In this document: piece after piece, positions 1 through 59,780 of the stretch | Position numbering within the stretch: the stretch's first letter is position 1 | How the letters are laid out: every line of letters starts with the position of its first letter | NCBI GenBank assembly: GCA_030062745.1 | Contig: CP099841.1 | Coordinates: forward strand, 2,108,001-2,172,000 | Direction of reading: 5' to 3' | Source of the DNA: Capitulum mitella | Taxonomy: Eukaryota; Arthropoda; Thecostraca; Pollicipedomorpha; Pollicipedidae | Length of the DNA: 64,000 nucleotides | Program-made: the position numbers and the translations under genes | Notes under the pieces: generated by a model | Seen by the model: only the letters and a program-made list of their open reading frames with translations | Databases searched by the model: none | Told to the model about the DNA's origin: nothing

Positions 1-454
1 GCTATTCAAAAGTAGCCAAAAAATGACGTGTGTTTTTTTAAAAAATCCACCTATGTCTGTTGCGAAGATTTCTTGGGAATATAATGTCATGGCTTTTTGC
101 ACTTCCTGGGTCGTCCGTGTGTCATCGGCACACTTTTGCCGCCCTTTGCCGACAATCGCTATCGTTGCCACAAGCGTACTTCGAGAAAGAACATGACACT
201 GGCAGAATCAGGCTGGAAGTAGATAGTCATACGCTGAAGTCCACAACGTGCCGCAACTTCTCCAATATGCGGCAAAGCGGGGGTGTATGAACATCCAGAA
301 GTATGCGGAGGGGGCGGAGACGTTTTCCCCATAAGACTAACGCAAGATTTCACCAGCAGAAGAGGGCATGGCTCCCGCCCCTTTCCCTGTTCCTACGCCC
401 ATGCGTCAAGGCAATGTTAATATGAAACAGGACACGCCAGCTGGCTCCGTGATG

Positions 455-1690
455 AATTCGGCACCGCCTGGGGGTGCCAAGTAGGGCAGCACCCCCTCGG
501 TTTTTCGTCAATAACTTCTGAATCGTTCCAGCTAGCCCAACGAAACTTTCCGTACATGTTTTACGATCAGCTTTACATATTTTGATATCAAAAACATTTT
601 CATGCCGGGTCAGATCATCGAGATACGACGTCATAAGTGAAACCTTGCATGCATGTTTTCGCCTCTTCGGGCGGTAGTGCGGCCATGCTCTTTTTTGAGA
701 ATATTCGCCAATATAACGCATGGATTATTTCAATTTACATAGGACACAGTCCCCAAAAGGATATACAACCGTGACCCTCCAACATTACAGGTCATGCTAG
801 GTCACATGCACGAAGACGATCGGACTGATTTCCATTATGGGTGACGGAAGTGGTTGCCGCCGAGCTTACCCATCGTTCAAGCCAGACAAGAAAATTTATA
901 TATGCGTCTTAGCAAGGCCCACCAAACATGAGGTCATGTCAGGTCACGCCATAGCTAGGTGTCAAAACGAAATGAAATACAGAATTGTCTGTGGAAGATC
1001 GTTTAGTAGCAGCAGAGAGCAATTATGGTTCCTAGTTAAAAAATGAAAAATGGCTATCTGTCCTGACCTCGTTTGACCTTGACCCGATAAAAAACAGACA
1101 GAGCAGACTTAATTATCACGAGAGGTCATTTCAGTTCTGCACTTGGCGCAGTTAGGAATCCCAGTGATTATTTACTGCTGTTTATCAGGAAGAGTGATGC
1201 AACCTTATCTGACCTGACCTAGGCCGACAATGAGTGGATAAAAACCAAGTAATGTAAACGTGATCATCAAAAGGCTTCACTTCCTTCATTTTTGTCACGT
1301 GGATCAAAACGGCTGCGAGTAAGTATCGATCTTTGGCATGCAAAGTAAGACCGATATTTCACGTGACCTAGGCTGTCTTTGACCAGACATTCTTTAACAT
1401 TATGACGTGTTTCTGATGCAGGAAATCGTGACCTTTCGTTTCATACTGACCTGAAGGTTCTAAGATCAGTATTGCCGATGACATGATGCACAAGTTTTTC
1501 CGACGTCGTGTTATACGTTTTATGTGACCTGTGGCATCGTCAGTTACGTAACCAAGGGTAACACAATATTTCCTGAATCGCAAGACTCAGGGCTAACGAT
1601 TGTTGGTAGACCGGTTCAGATCCCACGGTTAGATTCTGAGATAACAGGGGTTGCCGTTTTTGACACCCCCAGGCGGTCTCGGCTACAAAA
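455..1690. mobile_element. Highly diverged copy of the TTAA (piggyBac-like) non-autonomous element
   Basis: The two edges resemble the subterminal parts of the better copies at 19405-20624 and 46599-47812. At 455-500 a G-run and C-run hairpin is followed by CTCGGTTTTTCG. At 1638-1680 TCTGAGATAACAGGGG is followed by a C-run and GGCGGTCTCGG. Outer TTAA ends are not preserved, so the limits are approximate. The interior has no coding frame but holds repeated AGGTCA/TGACCT hexamers, including three direct repeats with 4-base spacing (789-804, 931-946, 1064-1079). Clusters are centred near 790, 939, 1073, 1215, 1372 and 1526. Membership is inferred from the edges plus the shared hexamer layout; primary sequence identity is low. 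Confidence 0.5.
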
Positions 1691-1716
1691 CAGGCAATGC
1701 GGTGCCGGGTAAATCG

Positions 1717-9115: not shown

Positions 9116-10795
9116 TTAACCCTATTCCCGGAGGGCTAGACAGTATGGTCGATTCCCGGCAGGGGGGCGGATTCGGCCCCCCCTGAGATCTCGAGAACTA
9201 CTTGTCCGATTTCATCGCAACAAACGACAATCGATTTGCCGTAACGCGAACTACATTTTTATAGGAAGAAATTTTCAAAATTCTCAAATTTGTGGATGCA
9301 GGGGGGCAAAAATGTCAAAATGGGGGTACTTTTGGACTTCTTGTAACTCCGTTGTTTATAGATCGATTTCGATGAAACTGGCATGAATCGAGAGATTATA
9401 AACAGGGCTTTTGCCGCAAATCTGAAATTTTGAGAAAATTCATGGGCGTTCACAGGGTTTCAAAAATAGGAGGATTAATTTTCTAACAACTGAATGAACA
9501 AAAAAGATAAAAACACTTTTTTAGCTTCTGCTAGTCATGCTGTGCTAAAGAAGTAAAAATCGCATTACAATGTTTGTATAATGTTAGCATAGGCGGTGCC
9601 AGGGACATGAAAAAGGGGAAACTGTCATGGTCACACGTTCTTCACAACAACTTGTGACCTTTGACCTTAAATGACCTTCCAGTGACCTTGGGGTCACTTG
9701 GAATGATCTCGTGTGCATTTGATATTATCTGTAAACGTTTTCAATTATTTGAATTCAGTCTATTCCAAAAATTTCATTTTATGGCTATTGCGATATAGGG
9801 TACGCGCACTGACATTTTAGGTCATAGCTCCGTGACCCGACCTGATATCAAGTTGAAACTTGGTACACAAGTAGAGGGCACCTTTCTACGTCATATATAT
9901 TCCGGGTTTGGCATTTGAAAAAACGGCGCAGAAAATTATTACAAAAAAACAAATTTTGAATTTTGACCTTGACCTGACCTTGTAAAGTGATCCCAGATAA
10001 ACAAAATTTTGTGTGCACATTGCCCAACTATTTAGCTATACATCTATATAAAGCTTTAAGTTCTATCTTAAAACTCTGTTTTTGGCAGACTTTTTTCTTC
10101 TACCCTCAACATGGCCAAAAATGGCATGAGGTGCCTCCCAAAAACGTTGCCTGGTTCCGTCCCTGAGCAAAGTAGAACTGTGAAATTTTGGCACAGCGCG
10201 TGGAGAAAATAGCTAGGAAAAGCGATTAAGTTTCGTCAAGCTGCGTCAAAAAGCCTGGAATTGGCAATCAAAAAACCCGAGGGGGTCGGATTCAGCCCCC
10301 CCTGCCGGGGTAATTTTGTTTTACAAGCAGTAAGTCAAAAGTCAAAATTTGTTTTTTCAATAATTTCGGCACCGTTTTTTCAAATGCAAATGAATAATAT
10401 GACGTAGAAAGATGCCCTCTACTTGTTAGCAAGTTTAATATAGGTCGGTTAAGCTATATAAAATGTAGTGCCTACTATATAAAAAAAAAATGAATTTTGG
10501 AATAGAGTGAATTTAATCGATTAAAACGTTTACAGATAATACTGAATCAAAATCACAGGTACAAGACAATAAAATATTATAAACATTAAATTTAAAACAT
10601 ACACAAACTAAAAAGTTTGGCCCCTTTTTAACATTTTTGCCCCCTGTATCCACAAATTTTTTTTGGAAATTTCTTTTTATAAAAATGTAGTTCACATCAC
10701 GGCAAATCGATTGCCGTTTGTTGCGATGAAATGGATAGCTAAGAACCGCTGCCGGGAATCGGCCATACCGTCTAGCCCTCCGGGAATAGGGTTAA
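9116..10795. mobile_element. Composite piggyBac-like TTAA element with two right ends facing outward
   Basis: The left boundary is TTAA (9116-9119) followed by CCCTATTCCCGGAGGGCTAG, the right-end terminus of the family in inverted orientation. That copy runs to about 10309 and lacks its last ~12 bases. It abuts a second, 5'-truncated copy in direct orientation (about 10310-10791) whose right end closes the structure at TTAA 10792-10795. The unit is thus 1672 bp between two TTAA sites with inverted right termini. No transposase frame is present. The inverted copy keeps the AGGTCA-type array (9655-9688) and a triple TGACCT run (9964-9980); the short copy has lost both. Confidence 0.75.
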
Positions 10796-19404: not shown

Positions 19405-19733
19405 TTAACCCTATTCCCGGCAGGGGGGGCGGAATCCGCCCCCCCTCGGGTTTTTTGCTTGCCAATTCCAGGCTTTTTAACGCAACTTCACGAAACTTGG
19501 TGACTTTTCCTAGCTATTTTTTCTAAGCGCCGTGACAAAATTTCGAAATTCTATTTTGCTCAGGGGCGGAGCCAGGCAACGTTTTTGGGAGGAACCTCAG
19601 GTCATTTTTGGCCATGTTGAGGGTAAAAGGAAAATGTCTGCCAAAAACAGAGTTTTTAAGATAGAACTTAAAACTTTATATGAATGTATAGCTAAATAGT
19701 TGGGCAATTTGCATATGTAACTTTGTTTATCTG

Positions 19734-19763
19734 AGGTCACGTTACAAGGTCAGATCAAGGTCA
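19734..19763 (+). promoter_or_regulatory. AGGTCA half-site cluster with an extended TCAAGGTCA site
   Basis: AGGTCA at 19734-19739, 19747-19752 and 19758-19763. The last is TCAAGGTCA, the extended monomer site of FTZ-F1/ERR-type receptors. Spacings are 7 and 5. The motif is observed; receptor binding is inference. Confidence 0.5.
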
Positions 19764-20037
19764 AAAGTCAAAATTTGTTTTTTCGCAATAATTTCGGCGC
19801 CGTTCTTTCAAATGCCAAACCCGGAATATATGTAACGTAGAAAGGCGCCCTCTACTTGTGTACCAAGTTTCAGCTTGATATCAGGTTGGGTCACGGAGAT
19901 ATGACCTAAAATGTCAGCGCGCGTACCCTATATCGCAAAAGCCAAAAAATGAATTTTTGGGAATAGAGTGAATTCAATCGATTAAAAACGTTTACAGATA
20001 ATATTGAATGCACACGACATCATTCCAGGTGACCCCA

Positions 20038-20070
20038 AGGTCACTGGAGGTCATTTAAGGTCAAAGGTCA
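20038..20070 (+). promoter_or_regulatory. Tandem array of four AGGTCA half-sites (DR4-DR4-DR1)
   Basis: AGGTCA at 20038-20043, 20048-20053, 20058-20063 and 20065-20070 gives spacers of 4, 4 and 1. The same array recurs at 47231-47263 and, inverted, at 9655-9688. DR1 is the classical site of RXR/USP, HNF4 and COUP-TF type receptors. No binding evidence exists here beyond the motif. Confidence 0.55.
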
Positions 20071-20624
20071 CAAGTTGATGTGAAGAACGTGTGACCATGA
20101 CAGTTCCCCCTTTTTTATGTCCCTGGCAACGCCTATGCTAACATTATACAAACATTGTAATGCGATTTGTACTTCTTTAGCATAACATGACTAGCAGAAG
20201 CTAAAAAAGTGTTTTGGCCTCTTTTGTTCATTCCGTTATTAGAAAACTAATCCCCCTATTTTTGAAACCCTGTGAACGCCCATGAATTTTCTCAAAATTA
20301 CAAATTTGCATACCCATGGTAAAAGCCCTATCCATAATCTCTCGTTTCATGCCAGTTTCATCGAAATCGGTCCATAAACGACGGAGTTATAAGAAGTAAA
20401 AAAGTACCCGCCATTTTGACATTTTTGGCCCCCTGTATCCACAAATTTCAAAATTTTGAAAATTTCTTTTTATAAAAATGTAGTTCACGTCACGGCAAAT
20501 CGATTGCCGTTTGTTGCGATGAAATCGGATAATTAGTTCTCGAGATCTCAGGGAGGGGGGGCCGAATCCGCCCCCCCCTGCCGGGAATCGGCCATACCGT
20601 CTAGCCCTCCGGGAATAGGGTTAA

Positions 20625-21090: not shown

Positions 21091-22404
21091 GGGGAAGGTG
21101 GGGTAAGACGGACCAGCTAAGGTTTGAAGTCACATTTCTCGCTACCATGCTATCCAACCTCACATTGTTCATAGTCTTCTGAATGTTGATTCTTCCCTCT
21201 TTTGATACGTGCAGACGCTGGATTTGAAATTCAAGAAATTTAGGTGGTGCTTGCTCTTAAAGGGGGACGAGTCAAAATCAGCGACAAGAAAAAACGCGGG
21301 GTAAGATGGACCACAAGTGGTCCGTCTTACCCCAGCAGTGCCTGCTATCCATTTATGTTTGTATAACTTCTATACTCTTGTAAACCAAAGGAAAAAGAGC
21401 GATAAAATAACGTATATAAATATAAATATATAAATAACGTATATAAATATAAATATAATAATGGCACACGAAGCGCCACCTCCGGATGCCTGCGCTGGAA
21501 TCCGGCCAACCAGTCTTTTCCGGCGAGACCGCTCTCCTTGTTGAAGTTGTGAGTTATGTTATTCTTTTCCGCCATATGAAAGGCCAGGTATCGCACGTCT
21601 TTGGTTGTTAGTCCGAAAAACTTGCTCTCCATCACAAGGATGTGGTTTACCAGCTCCTTCTCCTGAGCTGGGCTAAACACAGTCATCCTGGAGCCTAACA
21701 GCTTATCAGTCCCCTTGGCACATTTGTTTTGATTTTTCACCCTTCGCTTCAGGGTTGTCCTGGGGACGCTGAATGCTCTGGCAGCTTTCAAAAAACCCAT
21801 CGATTTTGATTTCACAGCTTCAATGGCTAACGCCATTTTCTCCTCGTCCCAACTTCCACTATCGGTTTTATGCTCGTACTTGCGCGGCATCTGCAAAAAT
21901 ATTAAAAAATTAGCTTATTGAAATTTGTAGATACATAGGTACTTTAAACAAGTCACAGTGTTTTAGCGAGGTTTTGTATCTGTGGGGTAAAATGGACCAC
22001 CACGGGAAGACGGACCACTAGTGGTCCGTCTTACCCAAACCTAAATTTTGGAAACATCATGACGTAGATACTAAATAGCCCAACATTGCGAAAACTTGCC
22101 TGCCCTAACTTGTGCTTCTATCATTGCTCTTCACAGCAAAATACAAAGAAAGATTAATGATGCAAAAAACGCGTCTAAATTTAATCATTCTTAGACCTCT
22201 TACCTTAGATCAGCGGGACGAAAAATACCATTTTACTCAATAACTCAATATCCGTGCGTGCTGGAACCATTAGCCCAAGATGGCGACTGGCGCGAAGGAA
22301 AACAAAGGTAGTTAGTGTATAGTGTAGCAGATGGCAGCAGCGGTTCAGCCGGGAAGGCTGGTGGTTCGTCTTACCCCAGTGGGCCGTCTTACCCCACCTT
22401 CCCC
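21091..22404 (-). mobile_element. Internally deleted Tigger/pogo-type element
   Basis: The left end GGGGAAGGTGGGGTAAGACG starts at 21091 and its reverse complement ends at 22404, with TA on each side (21089-21090, 22405-22406). Only the N-terminal third of a transposase remains, so it is non-autonomous. Terminal-like motifs recur inside as palindromes at about 21299-21336 and 21983-22035 and as tandem copies at 22365-22404. Its terminal word differs from the element at 12306-15830 after GGGGTAA, so the two belong to different families of one superfamily. Confidence 0.88.
21470..21896 (-). pseudogene. Tigger/pogo transposase, N-terminal DNA-binding part only
   Basis: An intact frame starting MQMPRKYEHK at 21896. 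Residues 15-60 form a psq-type helix-turn-helix (AARAFSVPRTTLKRRV). Residues 75-140 are the CENP-B/Tc5-type domain (ESKFFGLTTKDVRYLAFHMA, GLAGKDWLAGFQRRHP). The reading then runs into an A/T-rich TATAAATA repeat and the DDE nuclease domain is absent. If expressed it could only bind DNA, possibly acting as a repressor; that is inference. Confidence 0.8.
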
Positions 22405-30459: not shown

Positions 30460-31230
30460 TTAACCCTTTTCCCCTTTGGTGGAGGGTGCGCCAGAATCCC
30501 ACGTCCGTTTTTTTTTTGTTTTTGCTCCGCCATTCCCAGCATTTTTTTTAGCAATTTCACGACTTTTGCTGACTTTTCCTTCATATTCGTTTTACGTTCT
30601 TTGTCGATCTGTCAAAATTTCACTTTGTTCAGAGGCGGAGCCAGGGTAAGTTTTTGGGAAACTTCAGGCCATTTTTGGCACTGTCGAAGACAAAAAAAAC
30701 TTAGTTTAAAACTTTTTGACTATTGGGGGTGAACAGCTGGGAAAACAAATATATTTATATTGATATGAATTCACTTTGCAAGGTTAGATCAAAATTTATC
30801 CAAATTTTCGAGGAAGTCAAAATTTGTTTTTAAGTAACTTTTTCGCGATAATTTTCGAAATGCTAAATATGACATATATGATTTATCGCAGTGCACTCTA
30901 CTTGTGTTTTGAGTTTCAAAGTAATATCAGGTCGTGCCACGGAGCTATGACGCGTTCGCGCGCGTACCCTATATCACTAGTGCCATAAACAGAACGTTTG
31001 GAAATCTGGTCAGTTCAAATGATTTGATGCATTTTGAAGCATTATGAAATGGTCTAAAGGTCTTTTCATGTGAGTCTGAGGTTACTCGAGGTCATTTAAG
31101 GTCAAATGTCGTAAGCTGACCTGAAACACCGAGACCATTGCAGCTCGCTTTTTTCAAATCCCTATGCCGCCTATGCCAACATTACACAAGCGTTGTAACA
31201 GGATAATTAAGTGTAAATTTATTTTTAGCT
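30460..31230. mobile_element. Diverged, 3'-truncated copy of the TTAA element
   Basis: Begins TTAACCC at 30460 and follows the left-to-right order of the reference copy: GGCGGAGCCAGG near 30637, GTCAAAATTTG near 30818, CTCTACTTGTGTTTTGAGTTTC near 30896, GCGTACCCTATATC near 30962 and AGGTCATTTAAGGTCA near 31089. It fades out around 31230 without a right terminus. The first half of the hexamer array survives (spacing 4); the DR1 half has decayed. Confidence 0.7.
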
Positions 31231-31822: not shown

Positions 31823-33263
31823 TTAACCCTCGCCGGGCCGGCCTCCGGATCCACCTTCGCCGGTCCAAAGGAGAGCTCGTGAGAACCCCTCCCAAGATCT
31901 CGAGAATTATATATCGCACAGAAAAAGTAAAATTACCGCGAAACTAGAAACACCCACATTTGGTACAACCAGATAAAGTCTGAGGCTACCGGAGGCTTTT
32001 TTATGTCAAATCTGGCTCCAAAAATGTTGGACGTAAAACGAAGGTCTCTTTTACATACTTGCTGCAGTAAAAGAGCCCTTGAAGTCATATTTGGCCATTT
32101 CACTCAGAACTGAAAGTGGGGAAAAAATGTGATCTTTTTGTACAGGCAGGGATCGCATTTTTCTCTTTACAAGAGAACGTGGACTAAATCACGCCTCAAA
32201 TGCGTTCAGGACACGCATTAAGTGAGAAATCATCATACTAAGGTCAAACGAGATCAACCTAGATCAAAACTTTGACACATATAAGTCGGGAATTTCTGGT
32301 GTCTGTCGCATTATCTGACCGCGTCGTCATTGTTCATACACGGCACAGCATGAGATCCTACATCATTTCATGCAATGTCTCTTTACATCATGAAACCCAT
32401 ATTCCAAATCATTTCCTTAACGTCAGTCACACCGACACCGGGCGGCGGTCTCGGCTGCACTGTAAAAGCATAGTATTTGACAGGAAGTTATTTTAGCGAT
32501 GACCAGGGATTTTGTTTTGACAACCAGAAATAAGAGGACTGGGGCAGTAAACACTTCACAGAGAGTAAGCACCGGCTAAGTTCTTGTCGGCTGCGGCATA
32601 CAAAATGTGTATACGTTGACAACAAGCAGAATTTTTCAAAACGTCAAATAAGGTCAGCTTGGACTAAATGGTATTTAGTCAATCTTGGAACGTAGGGTTT
32701 TACCATATATCAGTGCTTCTAAAGCACATGTAGATACTGATAGACATTCAAAGACTGTAAACTGCATTCGGCTGCGAGTCTCAGATTTCCATATCAGACG
32801 TGACCTGACCCCAGGTCACTGGTGCAAAGGTGTACTTTCATGGGCGAAAGATGTGAGAAACGCCAGATAGTATATTCAAAGTCCAAAACCATCGAACTAG
32901 ACCCACAATTTCAACTGATGACTTGAAAAAGGCCGAAAGCTTGCGTGACCTAGGTTCACTTTGACACTTGCGAAAAATTCGAGATAGCAAAATTTTTGCA
33001 CCTGACGTTCGTTGTCAATGTAGCAAATTCTGAGTTAACTGATACATTTAGCCAAAGTTATGACACTACGTTTTTGGAACGTGGTGTTACTGGACCTGTC
33101 CTGGGTCACTGACCTGAGGCGACTCGAAGTTGAAAAGTTGGCAAAATGTGCAAAGCGATGCATAAAAAGGCAATCAGTTTTTCATGTCTCTGCGTCTCTT
33201 CATTTCCCTGCCATCCTCGAAAAACCAGAAGGGGGGTTTCTCAAGACCCCCGGCAAAAGTTAA
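31823..33263. mobile_element. Diverged long TTAA element with ~150-bp-spaced hexamer clusters
   Basis: The left boundary TTAACCCTCGCCGGGCCGG (31823) is followed by AAGATCTCGAGAATTAT, matching the right-end block of the reference copy in inverted orientation. The other end, at 33213-33263, has AAAAACC, a G-run, a C-run, CCGGCAAAAG and TTAA, matching the reference left end. Interior hexamer clusters are centred near 32500, 32653, 32810, 32955 and 33104. There is no coding frame. The boundaries are inferred from both ends together. Confidence 0.55.
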
Positions 33264-44043: not shown

Positions 44044-44335
44044 AACCCGTGCCGCAGGTCTGGTCACAGTGACCTCTCCTACGAATCTAATCACCGCAAC
44101 CTGCCCGAAGGGCCCGGTGACCGTGACCTGTGCCGGGGGTCTAGTGACCATGACTTGTCCCGCGGGTCCAGTGACTGCGACCTGTCCCCTGGGTCCTGTG
44201 ACCATGACCTGTCCCCTGGGTCCAGTGGTCATGACCTGTCCCCGTGGGCCAAGAGACCATGACCTGTCCTGTGAGTGCAATGACGGTGATCTGCCCCATG
44301 GGCCTTGTGATCGTGACCTGTCCTGCGGTCCGCTA
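44044..44335. repeat. 27-bp minisatellite with TGACCT in each unit
   Basis: Ten to eleven units have a core GTGACC(A/G)TGACCTGTCC. TGACCT or a one-base variant occurs at 44070, 44097, 44124, 44151, 44178, 44205, 44232, 44260, 44287 and 44314. The period is nine codons, so both strands carry long false frames (for example 43939-44700 minus). It ends about 400 bp upstream of the gene 2 start codon. Confidence 0.92.
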
Positions 44336-44736: not shown

Positions 44737-47700
44737 GTGAGCTCACACCACCTTAAGACGCCATCTGGTCTTGGACGCAGCTGCGGCCGTTCTAGCGAGC
44801 CAGTGCAGACAAAGACGCTGGAATGCAAGAGCAGACGCCAAATCCATTGACGCAACACCAGTCCTTACAAAAATAGAAGCGGGAATAGACGAGGGGCGAT
44901 CACTTCTCTCTCCTTATTGCCAAAGTCGACGGAAGCAATTGCCTTAAAAGGCAAACGAAGCATGCTTTTTGATTCAAACTAAACGTCACGCATTTTTGTT
45001 TGTAGTATGATTCACCTCATGGTGTGAAGGTTGCACTGAAGATGACTAGGTCAAAAGGTAGCAAAGTGAAAAATTCGCTGCTGTATATCAATGATAGTCT
45101 AAATTCCGAAACGCAGTAAAGTATACTGGAAACAACTGCCTTTAAACGCAACTTTGTTTTTTCAGGGCTTGATCTGGATACTCATTTTCCTGCAAGGTAT
45201 GTGATTGCGGAAGGCAGGAGCTATTTTCCGTAATTTTCCTTCCATAGTTTCGGCAGAAAAAAACATCCTGGTATTGCATGAAGTTATATCCAGTGAATAA
45301 AAAAGCGTTTCAAAGCTAAAAGTTGGCAAAAAGTGGCCTGTTCGGTTCCGGAGTTCTTTTGCTGGGCTTTTGTTGTGGCCTGATAATGTATCTGCTTCCT
45401 TTTTGAGTCTCTAATGGCAAATCGGTGAAATCGGTCATCATGCCCTTCTTATTGGCAGCTAAGATGAGACTGATTTTAAAACGCCCTCGCTTGGTCGATT
45501 CGATGCTTATCGGGACAGACTGGGATTCTGTCCATGGACCGAAGACTCTGAGTTTAATATTAAGCAGCTTTGGACATTTTTTCAAACGCAAATAAACAAC
45601 GCAGTTATTAACGATCCTAATGCGCTAAAATGGCAAGGAATCTCAGGGAGCAACAGTCATTGGATGCTGAATCAATAAATAGTTTTGCAGATAAATCTGA
45701 CGCGTTTTGTATGATTGTACATGATGTCTTGTTACACCCGCTATGCGTCACCGGACCCAACAGACTACGTGTTATTACTAAAGCAGATGTTGGTGCTAAG
45801 CAACAAAAACCGGCATAACACGCACACTGTTGGGGTGAAGAGTGAGGAACAATTGCTCTCCCCTCGCGCTTCTTGCACCAACCGTCACGATCACAATTGC
45901 AGAACCTCGAAATTTTGTCTGTCGTATGCTATACTCCTAGCACATCTCCAGTTCTTTAAATTCTTTGAATCGCAGCTTCTTCTCCCCGGCCTGGCGAAGT
46001 CGAGATGTCAGTCGTGCGGCCGATCCACGCGGCGGACGGCCAGACGCGTGTTGGGTCTTAGGACGACTACTGTGTCGAATATGGAACAGTTATCGGGCAA
46101 CCAGTTACAAAACGTTGTGGGCTCGTGTGATAAACGTGCAGTACAAAGGCATAGGTAGCCTGCATCAAGTCAATCAAAGTCAACCAATATCAAATAACTA
46201 TATAAAACACTGAGTATTTTTCCTACAAAACTGGTCTCATAACAAGATTAATATACGGATCTGCAGCCCTGCTCCACGGTCTCAAAAAAGCTTTGTGGGG
46301 AGTTAGTCCACAAAATGAACGTAATTCAGGCGACAAGGTTTGGTTAATTGAGGCTGGCCATGGTCAAGGGTTGGAAACGCAACATTTTGTTAATGACGCA
46401 TAAGGATTTTGGAGGACTTTGACTACATCATAAATGCAAATGTCCAGAAGCACAGACAAACAAGTTCATGTCAACTGAGGTTATTTAGTGCCAGTTATTT
46501 AAGCTGCAGCGTTCTGTTTTCTTCTTTAGACTTACCCAAATGGTCTTAATTAGCTGTCTGATATACGTGACTTTTCTACCTACTAACAACCCACCGGATT
46601 AACCCTATTCCCGGCAGGGGGGCGGAATCCGCCCCCCTCGGGTTTTTTGCTTGCCAATTCCAGGCTTTTTAACGCAGCTTCACCAAACTTGGTGACTTTT
46701 CCTAGCTATTCTTTCTACGTGCCGTGACAAAATTTCAAAATTCTATTTTGCTCAGGGGCGGAGCCAGGCAACATTTTTGGGAGGCACCTCATGCCATTTT
46801 TGGCCATGTTGAGGGTAAAAGGAAAATGTCTGCCAAAAACAGAGTTTTTAAGATAGAACTTAAAAATTTATATGGATGTATAGCTAAATAGTCAAACCAT
46901 GTGCAGATGTAATTTTGTTCACCTGAGGTCATTTTACGAGGTCAGGTCAAGGTCAAAAGTCAAACTTTGTTTTTTCGCAATGATTTCGGCGCCGTTTTTT
47001 TCAAATGCCAAACCCGGAATATATATGACGTAGAAGGGTGCCTTCTACTTTTGTACCAAGTTTCAGCTTGATATCTGGTCGGGTCACGGAGCTATGACCT
47101 AAAATGTCACTGCGCGTACCCTTTATCGCAATAACCATAAAATGAAATTTTTGAAATAGAGTAAATTCAAATGATTGAAAACGTTTACGGACAATATTAA
47201 ATGCACACGAGATCATTCCATGTGACCCCAAGGTCACTGGAGGTCATTTAAGGTCAAAGGTCACCAGCTGATCTGAGAAACGTGTGACCGTGACAGTTCC
47301 CCCTTTTTCATGTCCCTGGCACCGCCTATGCTAACATTATATGAACTTTGTTATGCGATTTGTGCTTCTTTAGTATAACATGACTAGCAGAAGTCAAAAA
47401 AGGGTGTTTGCCTCTTTTGTTTATTCAGTTGTTAGAAAACTAATCCTCCTATTTTTGAAACCCTGTGAACGCCCATGAATTTTCTCAAAATTTCAGATTT
47501 GCGGACCCATGGTAAAAGTCCTATCTATAATCTCTCGATTCATGCCAGTTTCATCGAAATCGGTCGATAAACAAGGGAGTTATAAGAAGTCCAAAAGTAC
47601 CCCCCATTTTGACATTTTTGCCCCCCTGTACCCTCAAATGTCAAAATTTTGAAAATTTCTTTTTATAAAAGTGTAGTTCACGTCACGGCAAATCGATTGC

Positions 47701-50700
47701 CGTTTGTTGCGACGAAATCGGACAAATAGTTCTCGAGATCTCAGGGGGGGCCGAATCCGCCCCCCCTGCCGGGAATCGACCATACCGTCTAGCCCTCCGG
47801 GAATAGGGTTAAATTATGCTCCATTTGCACAGAACGCAGCATTTCAAATGCTGACATATTTTGACCTCGACCCACCTGACTTAGTCCCAATCCACTTTAC
47901 GGTACGTAAGCCCATCATGCGTCCTGAGTTTTCGTAAAATTTAGTTGCGATGTGTTCAGTAAGTCTGAAGCACAGAAAGCCTGCTACTTATTCCGCATTT
48001 CACCTCGTATAAGCACGATTAATTTAACTTGGGGCATTGAGATTCTGAGAGTTTCATGATCACCAAGCACACTTCTAAAGACTTCGTTGCAATCTATGGA
48101 AGAGCTCAGTGACCACCAGTGCGCATAATTCTCAAAGGGCCACCAGCGCCTGTGCTACATCGTTTCCAGTGACGCATGATGGGCGGCTAACGATGTTGCA
48201 TTTACGAAACTACCAGAACAAATTACATATGACGAAATGAAATAATTAGAGACGAAGCAAGTCAAACTTCTATATGTGATAGATCAAAACATCCTATTTG
48301 ACCTCTTTTCTGTGTTATGCGAGGAGCCAGAGGGTTGATGGTGGTGTGTCCAACGCCTAAATCCATAGAGTTTAGCCACCACCACAGAAGTCGGAGGAGT
48401 TGCTTCTCATGTTGGCCGAATCGGGGGAGCCTTGTTTACCGAAAGTTGAGAGTTGTCCGTCGTGTCCCGTGAACATTATTAGAGAGGAACAGCGTAAAAT
48501 CAGGCGCCTTGGTTACACACTTCTCTGGACGTTTGTGATTGTCTGACAGCAACAATATGACAATGAGATGAGATAACTAGGTTTTATAGTGCTTACCCAC
48601 AATGCTCGCAGATATCCAATGTCTATAATTAACTCCGTCGGCTGTTATAGCAGGTGTTTCTGTTCAACTCAAGAACGAGGCGCTCGATATTGGACCCATT
48701 GTTATGTTTCTTTACTGGTAAATGGAATGGAGCCAGCATCAATGATCTAATAACTTCTGACGTAGGTTACACATCTGAACGAAATTCTCATGCTTCTATA
48801 AAGTTCTCTGGTACCTGAACGCTGCAAATGTGGCCAGTTTCACCACCATAAGTCGGTGTATTTTACGAATCATTCCAGATAATGAACTGATATTTGATTC
48901 AGGTCAGATACAAACGAAAAACGAGCTCGCGGAATTTTCGTCGGTCCCGAATAGTTTTAAAAATCGTCGTGGTCTGACGGGAGCGGGTCCAAAAGTTATG
49001 GTCAGCCCGGTCACCTGAGCGCGTTGGATTCCCCCACCGCTACCCGTTTACATGTTAAAGTGTTCATTTTCTCATCGCGACTGAATACTGGTCCGACGGC
49101 TATTATAGGTCGTGTAAGCCATCATAAGTTTGTAAGAAATCACAGGGTATTTGCGTGAATAAAACACCCTGTGTCCAAGATGTGGTAGAATTACGACTTG
49201 CAAACGCATCAACATTTTTGCTGTTGTTTCAAATGCCATCTGTCTCCATTACATTGTTGCTACGTTTAGCTGACGAGTACCGTGGCAAATTAAATTTTTG
49301 AGGCTCCTTTGTACCGAGTATGTACCGTAACACGACACCAGCATTGGTCAAGTCGGACGGACGTCAGATGCTGTCTCCGAAGGCGTGTCGCCGTACCTGT
49401 CAGCGCAGTGAACCAGTGACCATTGCGGCTGACCATTAAAAATCATGACGCTCTGAGATCTGCTGCGCTGCCACTTTCATTGGCCGAAATGAGCACCTCA
49501 GCGGTGCCGCCACCTTTCAGGGAACGGTGAAAGTGCTGATTCGGACGTTAGCGCTACATATGTGGGTCGTGGCCGGTTCGACCGCAACGCCATCTCTGGT
49601 GACCACTTTTGTGAAATTATCGCAGATGGCGTCACAGTGATGAGGAGTCGTCCAGGTTGCGATACAAAGAAGCACATTGAGCAAATTCAACATTTTATTG
49701 ATCCGTAAAAACTGCCGCGATTTCCGGTGATTATAGTTTTTTATGTGGTACTGGGAGTCGAAACAACGCCAATGATTGATGAAATCCCAGTGCCATTGAT
49801 GAAATGGCAGGTGTCCCATGGAGCTGGACACAGATTTCGGATGGCTTTCATTGCATGGAAGGCTGCAGCCCGAATGGCGAAGTGGGCCGGGAAAAGTGCC
49901 GAATAAGCTCCATATCAAGGAGACTCCAAGAGGTGTATCTGTTACAAACGGATTCAATCGCATAAAATCGCCCTGTGACCACTTGTAAATGACTGAATGC
50001 GGCCACTTTTAGCCCCAAACCTGATTTTTGTGCATTTGGGTGTGCAGCTATTTTGTGGAAAATGCAAATGTTTCCATGCCTTTTCCTTTGCCCGAACATT
50101 TTCCTCTGCATCCTGCATACCAAATGGAAAATTGGCTTCGGAACTCAGGCAACTTCACATTACTCTTTGACGCTATTATCGGTCTCGTGGGCTCAGCCGC
50201 CGCGCTCTTCACATACGTCATAAACGACTGTCCCTTCCACAGAAGCGTTCTCACTTATCACTACCATTAAACGTAACTTGTAAACTAACGAAATGCTAAG
50301 CTCTTTTCTTTGACATCGACGGCGGGCGACGAAACAAACCATATCTTTTCTTAAGATAATTACAGCCATGTTACAGTAATGGAGCCTTGCGTTAGAAATC
50401 TCCTCCATACATTCCAGAAAAAGAATCGATGAATTTATTGAGATCTGACATGAAAGACACAATGAACATTTTTAAGTTAGGAAAACGCAGAATCTGTGTG
50501 TCATCCTCACTGAATCTGCTGTATTCCCAGAAGGACATGGCCGGTTCCGCTACTTACCGGGGTATGAGAGTATGAGAGATAACTATCACCTCAGGCCGAG
50601 TGTTTCCTCTTTCAAGTACCAAAACAGATCAAACTTAACAGCCGACCCTGCCTAACCCAGCCCGTCCATACCGTTTTTGAAGGCTTGTTTTCCGTTACCT

Positions 50701-56700: not shown

Positions 56701-59700
56701 TATTCTCTCGTCGCGTAAAAATGGCGTCTCGTCTATGATCCGTCCTCTGCTGCTGTTCTGTTTGTGTCCTCTGAGCTGTCCTTCGTCGCCGTTCTGTTGG
56801 CGTCAGCCATCTGACGTTTGTCAGATGTCAGATGGCAATCGCTGCCGATTCGTTGACGTTTGCCCAGTGATTTTGATGACGACCTTTATTCCGCATTCTA
56901 CGACAGCTCTGATTTTATGCCCTCGTATGTCCCTCTTATGTCTTTTTATCCGTGCTTACCCTCCGATTTTCTCCCCGCCACCGTTCTGTTAACGTCTAAT
57001 CTGTCACTTTTCTTTTGGTGTCTGTTCCCTGATCTGCCCGCTGCCTTCGTTCTGTTGGCGCCCACCCCCAACCTGCTCTCCGTTATCATTCTGCTGGTGG
57101 CCACCTCCTGACATGCCCTCTGCCGCGTCCCCAGGCGCCTCCGGCCAGCCGGAGACCCCGAGAGCTCGACTGCGGCGTTCGCTGGCGGCGCAGGAGCCGG
57201 ACCTGAGCCAGCCGGATACAGATGTCGCCCCGGTCGGCGGCGCAGACGGCCCCGCCGTGACCGACGCTGGCGTCAAGGCCTGGCCACTGCCGCTGCTGCC
57301 CAATTCCAGGGCGCGAGCCGTAGCGGCGGGGCCTGTGGGGCCTCGTGGACCATCAGGCGGCGGCGGCCGTGAGGAGTCGTCGCCGGCGCTGCCCGAGGCC
57401 GACTCTGCCCCGCCGCGCAGCACGCCGTCAGCGCCGCCGTCTCCGCCAGCTCGGAGACGGACCGGCTCGGCCGCTCCTGGAGAGCCTGCGGTCGTGCCGA
57501 CCTCGGTGCGGTCGATCGGGCACGCGCCAGAGGCCGGGAGCGGCCAGCCGCAGCCGGCGCCGGACCCTGCCAGCCCGGAGCGTCGGCCGAACAGCTCTCC
57601 GGCCGACGCCGCAGCTCCAGCTGCGGGCGCGGCAACCGGGGTGGGGTTCCGCCATTTGGCAAGAGCAGTAGCAGAGCTTTCCTTCCTGTCCGCACCAGCA
57701 GCGATGCTTCCTTCCGTGTCCGCTCTGTCGACCGAACCTCCCTCCGCGTCCACATCACAGGCTGAGTTCCTGCCCCAGCTGGCGCCAGCAGCCGCGCGGC
57801 CTTCCCCGTCGCCCGGGGCTGAGTTCCCCTCGCTGTCGTCGGTGCCGGTCACGGGGTTCTCGTGCTCGGACAGGGACGGGCCCGGCTACTACGCAGACCC
57901 GGCCGGGCCGTCCTTCTGCCAGGTGAGCTCCTGCTGCCCCTTCACGGACGAGCTCCGCTCTGGTTACTCCGTTACAGTCTACGGCAGTCCTTAAAGTCTG
58001 ATGCAGTCCCTTTATCGGTCTGCCGCAGTCACTGCTTTGAAGCCTCGTCACTTTGCCGTGATCTATTGTCAGCCATCTGCGATCGGGCTTCCTCTATTCC
58101 ATCTTGATGCAGTCAGTCAGGCATTCTTTTTTTTTGACGCCGCACGGTGAAGCACATCCGTCTGGTCTTGGTCCAGTTTTTACGTTACGTTCCGCTGCAG
58201 TCAGTCGGATTCAGTTGTCTCGCTGTAACGATAATTTCCATCAGGCTCCGATGCCTTTCCTATGTTAGACCCTACTGCAGACGCTTTGCCGGTCCCTGAT
58301 GCATTCCGTCCGTTGCTGATCTACTGTCAGGTCATGTTCCGCTCATCCCCCCCCCCGACGGGTGCTGCTGTTGCCTCTCTGCCCGGTGCGCAACTTTGCT
58401 GCTTAGAAGCCCGGGAAGAGCTAAAATGCCTTCGCCGCTGCACCCCGAATCCCGCGGTTTCTGGGGACAGTCCGAGTCGCCGATGACGCCACCGGAATGC
58501 CGTTCTCCAGGATGGGATTAAATGCCCAGTGCAATTTGGCCGCGCCTCGGGTGACGCAGAGGCCCTCTGTCAAGTCATAAATAAAACGATGATATCACCC
58601 ACTGTGTCCTTGCCCGGCTAGGGACCAAAATTAATGCTTCCTGGACTCAACTACACGCCTTACCATTCCACGGCACCATGATCCCGTTGTACCTGCATCT
58701 GTATCTGATGGATGTGCTGGTGCATAGCCAGGAGTTGTGGGTGTTGCATGAATCGCGAAGCAGTGTACTAAATTGCACTGATTTAGTGCCTTATTGTTTC
58801 ATTATTATTCCTTTCACGATGCTACGACACATCAGACTGTTATCCCTTCATCATGGTAATTGTAACTTAGTTACTGCGTACCTATCCATGAGAAAGAACT
58901 ATTCAAAGCAGCTCCATCCTGCGCCAGAGTCGTGTTCACTATTGGCCTGTTGTTGTGAGACCATCGGACGATGACAGCAACGCTGATGGCCTCTCCTCTG
59001 TTTCAGGTATTCCACATTTGTCACGGACACGGAATGGATTCATTTCTCTGTCCTGTCGGAACTCTCTTCAATCAGAAGTATCTGGTGTGCGACTGGTGGT
59101 ACAACGTTGACTGCAGCACTTCTGCTTCCTTTTATTGGGTCAACAGAGTGGGCGGTAATGCTACTGAAGCCGACAGACAGTACGGCAGCAACAGAACACG
59201 GAGCTCTGCGTCATTATCTGGGAGGAAGCCTGCAGGAAGAGGCAGAGAGGTCTCCTCTACCTTGAAAGTACCAGACCAGATGACCGCAGTAAGTGCCATC
59301 GACACTGGAGAGAATCGCAACGAGTCAGAGCGTCACAATGCCTCGACACCGTTTTTCATCAGCGGTGGCGGCCATGAAACCGACTGGCCCACGACAGACG
59401 CAGAAAATTCCGCGCAACCGTCCACAAAGCACCTGGAGAAACCTGAATCACGATTTCCTGCGGGTCCTGACACGGAGACGAATATATCGTCGGTTCTCGA
59501 CGGAGATCGTGACGAGGATTTCGATCCGGACCACGTGAAAATGGCGCAGTGGACACGTAGCCAACAGGCTCGGCCAGGGCCACATCGGAAGGACGTTTTA
59601 AACTTAAGAGGCGAAATGGGAATGAAAAGGCCTGCAGGAAACCTGGAAACGCAACCAGCGGTAGACCCACCTCGACACAAGAACCTGGCACGTGAGAGGA

Positions 59701-59780
59701 GGACAGCAACCAGACAGACAACAGCAGCCGGATTCAGACATTATCATACCTGCCGACATGATCTTATTAGTGAATTGTAG
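44731..59780 (+). CDS. Cuticle gene 2: CPAP1-type chitin-binding protein (about 532 aa in the simplest model)
   Basis: Coding exons are 44731-44736 (ATGAAG), 45166-45196, 57135-57922 and 59007-59780, in phases 0, 1, 0. Exons one and two join to MKGLIWILIFLQG, a good signal peptide. The ~12-kb intron to 57135 is inferred from matching phase 1 and from the same layout in gene 1. Residues ~15-250 are Ala/Pro/Ser-rich. Residues 256-311 form a chitin-binding domain with Cys spacing 17-5-9-12-7, identical to gene 1, including GTLFNQKYLVCDWWYNV. A hydrophilic tail follows. A donor at 59288/59289 (GCA/GTAAGT) and coding-like sequence in other frames to 61039 mean the true C-terminus may differ. Likely role: extracellular chitin binding in cuticle. 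Confidence 0.65.
45166..45196 (+). CDS. Cuticle gene 2, signal-peptide exon
   Basis: The acceptor TTGTTTTTTCAG ends at 45165. GGC TTG ATC TGG ATA CTC then encodes GLIWILIFLQ and one base before GTATGT. It is 31 nt long and ends in phase 1, like its counterpart in gene 1. Confidence 0.75.
46599..47812. mobile_element. Complete piggyBac-like non-autonomous TTAA element inside gene 2
   Basis: TTAA 46599-46602 and TTAA 47809-47812 bracket 1206 bp closely similar along its whole length to the copy at 19405-20624, with the same CCCTATTCCCGG ends and G/C hairpins. It contains hexamer clusters at 46926-46955 (including a zero-spaced pair), 47081-47100 and 47231-47263 (spacers 4, 4, 1). No transposase. 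Confidence 0.87.
47231..47263 (+). promoter_or_regulatory. Four-hexamer AGGTCA array (DR4-DR4-DR1), intronic copy
   Basis: AGGTCA at 47231, 47241, 47251 and 47258, the same layout as 20038-20070. It lies in the predicted first long intron of a cuticle gene, a position where an enhancer could act. Inference only. Confidence 0.5.
47813..52001. other. No supported gene (intronic or intergenic)
   Basis: Minus-strand frames at 49517-49963 and 51243-51807 are the longest, about 90-150 codons. They show no domain and overlap one another. Confidence 0.5.
52002..52016. repeat. Left arm of a 3.5-kb-separated inverted repeat
   Basis: CAGGGCCTATTTTAA; the exact reverse complement is at 55549-55563. CAGGG is a common start of hAT termini, but no matching 8-bp target duplication is seen. 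Confidence 0.55.
52100..53155. repeat. Diverged tandem duplication, unit about 530 bp
   Basis: Corresponding words recur about 526-534 bp apart: TGGTTCGCACTGACAC (52336) and TGGTTCGCACCGAGAC (52862); CTCATCCGCTGTACGGGGTA (about 52571) and its variant near 53106; GAGGCGCGCGCTCAAGGTGG and its variant just after each. No coding content is recognised. Confidence 0.55.
53725..54205. repeat. Purine-rich degenerate (GACAGA/GGAGACC) repeat
   Basis: About 480 bases of purine-biased plus strand with recurrent GACAGA, GAGACCG and GACGGA words. It yields a Ser/Leu-rich false frame on the minus strand (53688-54047). Confidence 0.7.
55549..55563. repeat. Right arm of the inverted repeat
   Basis: TTAAAATAGGCCCTG, the exact reverse complement of 52002-52016. 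Nearby G-run/ATTTCGC words (52029-52046 and 55477-55490) are in direct orientation instead. Confidence 0.55.
57135..57922 (+). CDS. Cuticle gene 2, Ala/Pro-rich exon ending inside the chitin-binding domain
   Basis: The acceptor GCGTCCCCAG ends at 57134 and the exon ends TTC TGC CAG/GTGAGC. It encodes FSCSDRDGPGYYADPAGPSF and the second Cys. The GC-rich exon also leaves a 282-codon shadow frame open on the minus strand. Confidence 0.8.
57923..59006. other. Intron within the chitin-binding domain of gene 2
   Basis: Bounded by GTGAGC and TGTTTCAG. It interrupts the domain between Cys 2 and Cys 3, exactly as in gene 1 (37395-37876). Confidence 0.75.
59007..59288 (+). CDS. Cuticle gene 2, second half of the chitin-binding domain
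   Basis: The acceptor CTCTGTTTCAG ends at 59006. The exon starts VFHICHGHG, carries Cys 3-6 and reaches GCA/GTAAGT. The frame stays open to 59780 if the donor is skipped. Confidence 0.85.

Follow-up and report, generated by a model that had tools for sequence, protein, structure and literature searches.

The window, a 64,000-nucleotide stretch of Capitulum mitella DNA, contains at 19405..20624 (+) an element of 1,220 bp that runs from TTAA to TTAA, lacks any open reading frame of at least 180 residues and belongs to a repeated family termed here family A. Its terminal inverted repeats, both including the TTAA, read TTAACCCTATTCCCGG on the left (19405..19420, +) and CCGGGAATAGGGTTAA on the right (20609..20624, +). 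A G/C hairpin, with a T run after it, lies just inside the left end (19423..19447, +) and a second G/C hairpin inside the right end (20553..20577, +); folding of the consensus ends agrees. The interior carries four clusters of the hexamer AGGTCA (TGACCT on the opposite strand): a single hexamer at 19599..19604 (+), three hexamers at 19734..19763 (+; four in the consensus), a single hexamer at 19902..19907 (−) and four hexamers at 20038..20070 (+) with steps of 10, 10 and 7 bp. Another family A copy at 46599..47812 (+) has hexamers at 46926–46955, 47095–47100 and 47231–47263. The elements listed in the original prediction are all real, but three had been overlooked: a family A copy at 9116..10309 (−; hexamers at 9655–9688, 9819–9824 and 9964–9980), a partial copy at 10334..10795 (+) that adjoins it in the opposite orientation, and a copy of an older subfamily, A′, at 30460..~31198 (+), with 65–68% identity to A and a right limit that is the limit of the alignment. 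The two abutting copies at 9116–10795 resemble a compound inverted element, and inverted pairs are apparent also for some copies of family D (see below) elsewhere in the genome. A stretch similar to family E (46383–46552) lies immediately to the left of the copy at 46599.

The genome was searched over 477 Mb in 16 contigs. From 6,638 first-look candidates for family A, 40 were scored, including the window copy itself, and all 40 are near full length with 96–100% identity; the 20-nt left end is found 5,357 times in the genome as an exact match. A scan of the window against Rfam at gathering scores gave no match. Two other frames in the window were assigned by profile: 21345–21896 (−) contains HTH_psq and HTH_Tnp_Tc5 and is probably a fragment of a pogo/Tc5-type transposase, and 58971–59780 encodes a chitin-binding Peritrophin-A domain (CBM_14), consistent with an arthropod genome.

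The elements at 455–1690 and 31823–33263 had been taken for diverged forms of A; however, neither aligns with A, and they represent separate families, B and C, with genomic copies of their own. An element is indeed present at the first of these positions, although its real extent is approximately 453..1713 (+) and its TTAA ends have decayed. Its hexamer clusters are centred at about 797, 939, 1072, 1215, 1367 and 1528, with single hexamers at 1123, 1429 and 1447. The family C element (31823..33263, +) has exact hexamers at 32241, 32651, 32801, 32813, 32946 and 33110. Exact hexamers thus occur at or near every cluster position originally listed, except that at ~32500. The 39 other scored main matches of family B are 74–78% identical to the window copy, and the scored matches of family C are 68–73% identical to theirs. 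Alignment of A, B and C by blastn returned nothing. The three pairs were also compared on both strands with the hexamers masked and with 100 shuffles each: B and C (reverse) have in common a subterminal module of ~100 bp that lies beside the hairpin and extends as far as the first cluster (score 63, against at most 41 in the shuffles), and A and C (reverse) score 43 against a shuffle maximum of 49, which is not significant alone, although it is in register. A common ancestor visible along the entire elements was rejected, since only the B–C reverse comparison of the six beats its shuffles. The three families may descend from a remote common ancestor, and their independence is not proved.

TTAA is present at both ends in 20 of 21 family A copies, the other lacking it on the right. 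Within loose windows, 19 of 28 family B and 10 of 16 family C copies that reach the left end have TTAA near it, and 23 of 37 and 12 of 19 copies, respectively, have it near the right end. The termini are of the CCY type (CCCTATTCCCGG in A, CCCGGCACCGCC in B and CCCTCGCCGGGC in C), and in A and B the terminal motif seems to recur further inside the right end, an asymmetry recognized by eye and without a statistic. Inverted ends, high copy number and the lack of open frames of at least 180 residues in the window elements are MITE-like traits. MITEs are usually short, under 600–800 bp, and the consensus lengths of A (1,218 bp), B (about 1,276 bp) and C (about 1,497 bp) exceed this size. On sequence grounds, the three families are best read as probable non-autonomous, non-coding TTAA transposons of piggyBac-like type. 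The DDE_Tnp_1_7 transposase profile gave 118 matches in the genome, from 116 scored of 267 candidates. Each of 12 piggyBac-transposase loci that were examined holds 1–7 scattered hexamers in ~4.1 kb; ten have termini other than those of A, B and C at one or both ends and in two no termini were found. Among loci L089–L100 there are two or more groups of piggyBac loci, the majority of them with a long transposase frame; their termini are TTAACCCATTAACGCCCA or TTAACCCTTTAGTGCCCA. In L097 (387–4103), a piggyBac with a 613-residue open transposase frame lies inside an A copy that is split near consensus positions 804–823. It was considered as an autonomous partner and rejected, being a different piggyBac that has inserted itself into an A copy.

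The window contains 92 occurrences of AGGTCA/TGACCT against 28.6 expected, a count that none of 100 dinucleotide shuffles reached. Over the window and 19 other loci, the bases that match A, B or C hold 138 hexamers in 19,212 bases (7.18 per kb) and the remaining 123,411 bases hold 91 (0.74 per kb), so that the excess is mainly a property of the elements; outside the A/B/C bases AGGTCA ranks 68th among all hexamers, a modest enrichment. As the original prediction anticipated, hexamer density in the consensuses (built from 24 A, 40 B and 21 C rows) is far above that of shuffled sequence, with 10, 16 and 18 hexamers in A, B and C compared with means of 0.45, 0.70 and 0.87 and maxima of 3, 4 and 5 in 1,000 shuffles each. 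The window copies of B and C contain 13 and 6 hexamers, fewer than their consensuses, which indicates that copies lose them; the hexamers are ancestral in the elements. Exact AGGTCA occurs 44 times in the A–C consensuses against 2.1 expected, about 20-fold, whereas its 18 one-mismatch variants together occur 48 times against 34.4 expected (1.4-fold), with the largest excesses for ACGTCA (9; 1.5 expected), ATGTCA (9; 2.7) and GGGTCA (7; 1.9). This contrast is weaker in single copies of families E (13 exact and 12 near words) and F (9 and 13). Positions flanking the hexamers show little preference, neighbouring hexamers aside. With respect to strand, nine of the ten hexamers are plus in the A consensus; in B, from left to right, six of the first seven are plus and the last nine are minus (by halves, six of nine plus and then seven of seven minus); and in C the first half is plus throughout (8/8), with six of ten minus in the second half. 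Apart from the transposon arrays, a repeat at 44070–44319 has six TGACCT at steps of ~27 bp or multiples thereof, within an open frame with repeated peptide motifs, and resembles a minisatellite.

A pattern of three hexamers with the first two at DR4 has 14,685 matches in the genome, overlapping matches being counted separately, against 168 for the reversed pattern. The 100 matches listed fall at 67 places, 49 of them A-like and 18 others, and five of the 18 were taken, chosen without sight of their flanks. One proved to be A′ (L122) and one a lone cluster with no array around it (L121), and the other three represent additional repeated families, termed D (L123), E (L124) and F (L125). The pattern is also matched by a minisatellite with 5-bp tandem runs of AGGTC (G000:C1:111363-111683), a possible seed for clusters. 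At an E value of 0.01, what D, E and F have in common with A–C and with each other is confined to stretches of 16–29 bp that cover hexamer clusters (D with B and C, E with C), and family F has no stretch in common with A–E. The F copy terminates in TTAA and has G/C hairpins. The D consensus, from four copies, contains 20 hexamers (18 plus) in seven clusters over 1,061 bp, and E and F are represented by single copies trimmed to L124 561–1401 (which leaves out a hexamer at 16) and L125 483–1260.

The 40-bp rule by which hexamers were grouped into clusters and the ranges of 135–170 and 132–170 bp were set after A–C had been seen, and a scan with a 36-bp window was added. In the A, B and C consensuses and single copies of D, E and F, 20 of 31 cluster steps are 135–170 bp long, compared with a mean of 4.4 and a maximum of 14 in 3,000 null placements; the median step is 148 bp, and the best 36-bp window holds 22 steps against a null maximum of 16 (1,000 nulls). 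For the D consensus with E and F, families that were chosen regardless of spacing, 12 of 14 steps are 132–170 bp, a result that did not arise in 20,000 randomizations. The steps of the D consensus (148, 162, 141, 156, 145 and 149 bp; mean 150.7) are so even that one of 20,000 random placements equalled them. Family B is irregular, with six of eight steps outside 135–170 bp (186, 67, 80, 133, 60 and 106 bp), and family C has one misfit step of 174 bp and one gap of 416 bp. By these null placements, the regular spacing reported in the original prediction is non-random. At shorter range, 12 of the 22 adjacent same-strand pairs within 30 bp in A–C are exactly 10 bp apart, which is DR4 for AGGTCA half-sites. 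When D is included, a family found through a DR4-containing pattern, 19 of 33 pairs are at 10 bp, with 16 different linkers of four letters in these 19 pairs, and seven are at 5 bp, the two steps together accounting for 26 of the 33. The A–D consensuses each carry AGGTCA arrays with one to four hexamers per cluster, often at DR4, and clusters about 150 bp apart. Base composition around the clusters (GC 0.35–0.45, and 0.44–0.51 near clusters) gave no periodic or phasing signal. The description of this spacing as nucleosomal holds in that ~150 bp is near the length of the core particle, but it is a coincidence of length, in a composition without phasing.

An origin of the pitch from a ~150-bp tandem unit, one of two explanations first offered, is clear in family B, faint in A and D and not seen in C. 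Three ~150-bp units at offsets of 150 and 151 are present in B, with hexamer-masked scores of 60–72 against 23–24 for the reversed control. Masked family A scores 39 against 34, and its 44-bp repeat at lag 304 is built from hexamers; family D scores 36 against 28, or 30 against 27 after additional masking of one-mismatch words, with residual similarity at lag 293; and masked family C (28–32 against 29) shows no tandem unit. We read this as probable tandem duplication, at least in B, after which similarity was mostly lost but the word retained.

For the older subfamily, 20 loci were returned, eight with copies at 65–74% identity to A, and the A′ consensus was built from seven of them (L101, L103, L105, L106, L107, L111 and L117); the eighth, L112, which is nearest to A, was omitted. 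Overall identity between the A and A′ consensuses is 79.4%, with 96.6% at hexamer sites (59 positions) and 78.6% elsewhere (1,152 positions); one of 1,217 circular shifts reaches the same hexamer-site value, and eight of the ten hexamers are exact in both. Only four of the 16 best 20-bp windows touch a hexamer, and several non-hexamer blocks are equally conserved. Among individual copies, exact hexamers are retained at 0.96 in A, 0.53 in B and 0.37 in C, compared with 0.90, 0.44 and 0.34 for all non-CpG hexamers, a small excess. Hexamer divergence relative to a base-matched expectation is 0.48, 0.79 and 0.89, respectively (computed with a looser column rule, under which B has 18 sites), and values as low are given by 89 of 1,217, 61 of 1,450 and 191 of 1,531 circular shifts. 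Selection on inserted copies was rejected as weak at most, from this near-neutral decay. The observation that the hexamers persist while their surroundings diverge accordingly stands between the A and A′ consensuses and applies weakly among copies, with other blocks of A also kept. With the hexamers kept between the A and A′ consensuses but lost at a near-neutral rate in individual copies, selection appears to have acted on the replicating elements; the selection first proposed is thus supported for the replicating lineage, by exactness, varied linkers and A/A′ conservation, and for inserted copies is weak at most.

The reading that we favour, held at slightly less than even confidence, is that these are non-autonomous piggyBac-like elements with docking arrays for one or more host nuclear receptors. 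On this view a host protein with sequence specificity, most likely one or several such receptors, would dock on the array and open or organize the chromatin of the element in germ-line or larval cells, which would make the element more accessible to a transposase provided in trans. The regular pitch was probably set by ~150-bp tandem duplication, as is clear in B, and probably retained because the hexamers and their spacing mattered. Nuclear receptors bind DR4 and single AGGTCA words; the half-site assignment originally made stands as an identity of letters alone. The genome contains 49 matches to zf-C4 receptor DNA-binding domains, from 64 candidates. A transposon-borne receptor-like DNA-binding domain was considered and rejected, zf-C4 not being repeated in the manner of a transposon. 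Against a receptor, runs at 5-bp steps overlap and are unfit for receptor dimers, and the left–right change of orientation in B and C suits transposase sites. It is possible, although doubtful, that several families, independently or by remote ancestry, maintain exact AGGTCA/DR4 arrays because a host receptor bound at approximately nucleosome-core pitch provides access in the germ line, with thousands of hormone-response-like clusters seeded in consequence.

The same change of orientation fits an alternative that we consider unlikely, namely that the hexamers are sites for the mobilizing transposase or for another TE-encoded protein, with the unusually long internal array helping to bring the ends together. 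The TTAA and CCY-type ends of A, B and C and the B–C subterminal module that leads up to the first cluster would agree with such a role, for which piggyBat offers a precedent in the repeated subterminal motifs that its description places inside a transposase footprint of ~120 bp at the left end (PMC11707139). The clusters studied here nevertheless occur throughout the interior, far past a footprint of that size, and the arrays of A and D, with nine of ten and 18 of 20 hexamers plus, are not mirror-like. The 12 piggyBac-transposase loci, with their scattered hexamers and, in ten, other termini, also speak against it, although they need not be the partners of A–C.

That the arrays are functionless remnants of a decayed ~150-bp satellite-like tandem repeat that happened to hold AGGTCA is improbable. 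The three B units, the residual similarity in D and the hexamer-built repeat in A are what such a passive origin would leave, and oyster Helentron elements have central tandem units of 140–180 bp (PMC7492417). Decay, however, predicts many one-mismatch hexamers and common linkers, and the consensuses show neither; C retains no unit once its hexamers are masked, and the hexamers are conserved between A and A′.

We assign a quite low probability to the idea that the word was kept for DNA shape or chromatin mechanics and not for a receptor. The preponderance of 5- and 10-bp steps would fit, as would the cluster steps with their median of 148 bp and, in D, mean of 150.7 bp, but a requirement of shape should tolerate near-cognate words and the word is exact. 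Moreover, composition is not phased around the clusters, and 150 bp falls below the usual animal nucleosome repeat lengths, which exceed it. Chance or after-the-fact pattern picking, a concern because the word and spacing were chosen after the sequence had been seen, is refuted by the shuffles, by the control with the pattern reversed and by the families that emerged later, and is given a negligible probability.

Several known systems resemble these elements in part. The coral CMITEs are piggyBac-type MITEs with TTAA, CC[C/T]T termini and several families with different TIRs, and their conserved interior is unexplained and was suggested by the authors to possibly aid transposition (PMC2872659). 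They are ~100 bp long with one alignable interior of 75 bases (PMC2872659), whereas the present elements are 1.2–1.5 kb long and the interiors of the families have in common only the hexamer, the 10-bp step and the ~150-bp pitch. In Caenorhabditis, motifs within CERP2/CELE2 MITEs are read by a DNA-binding factor, HIM-17, and these MITEs seeded germ-line promoters (PMC9757741). HIM-17 is a transposase-related THAP-domain protein, and promoter function was demonstrated in that system (PMC9757741), in contrast to the receptor-type word and long regular arrays described here from sequence only. Alu repeats have likewise multiplied AGGTCA-type direct repeats as DR2 retinoic-acid response elements, but those sites came mostly from a non-consensus motif through deamination of CpG (PMC1785376) and the present ones are ancestral and decaying. 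Finally, the oyster Cg_HINE Helentrons and Pearl elements are non-autonomous DNA transposons with internal units of ~140–180 bp; their repeats are recognisably satellite-like (PMC7492417), unlike the units of the TTAA elements, which, where seen, are mostly dissimilar outside the hexamers. Titles and abstract openings in the open-access literature, among the matches listed, describe no such arrays; a description in print is still possible.

Should a receptor prove to be the reader of the array, this would be a case of non-coding transposons exploiting endocrine transcription factors by way of a defined geometry, and the 14,685 triple-hexamer matches would constitute a very large supply of potential hormone-response clusters with a datable origin. 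If instead a transposase reads it, the arrays would represent a new long-range architecture in a superfamily that serves as a gene-delivery tool. In both cases the combination of hexamer, 10-bp step and ~150-bp pitch amounts to a sharp, testable code.
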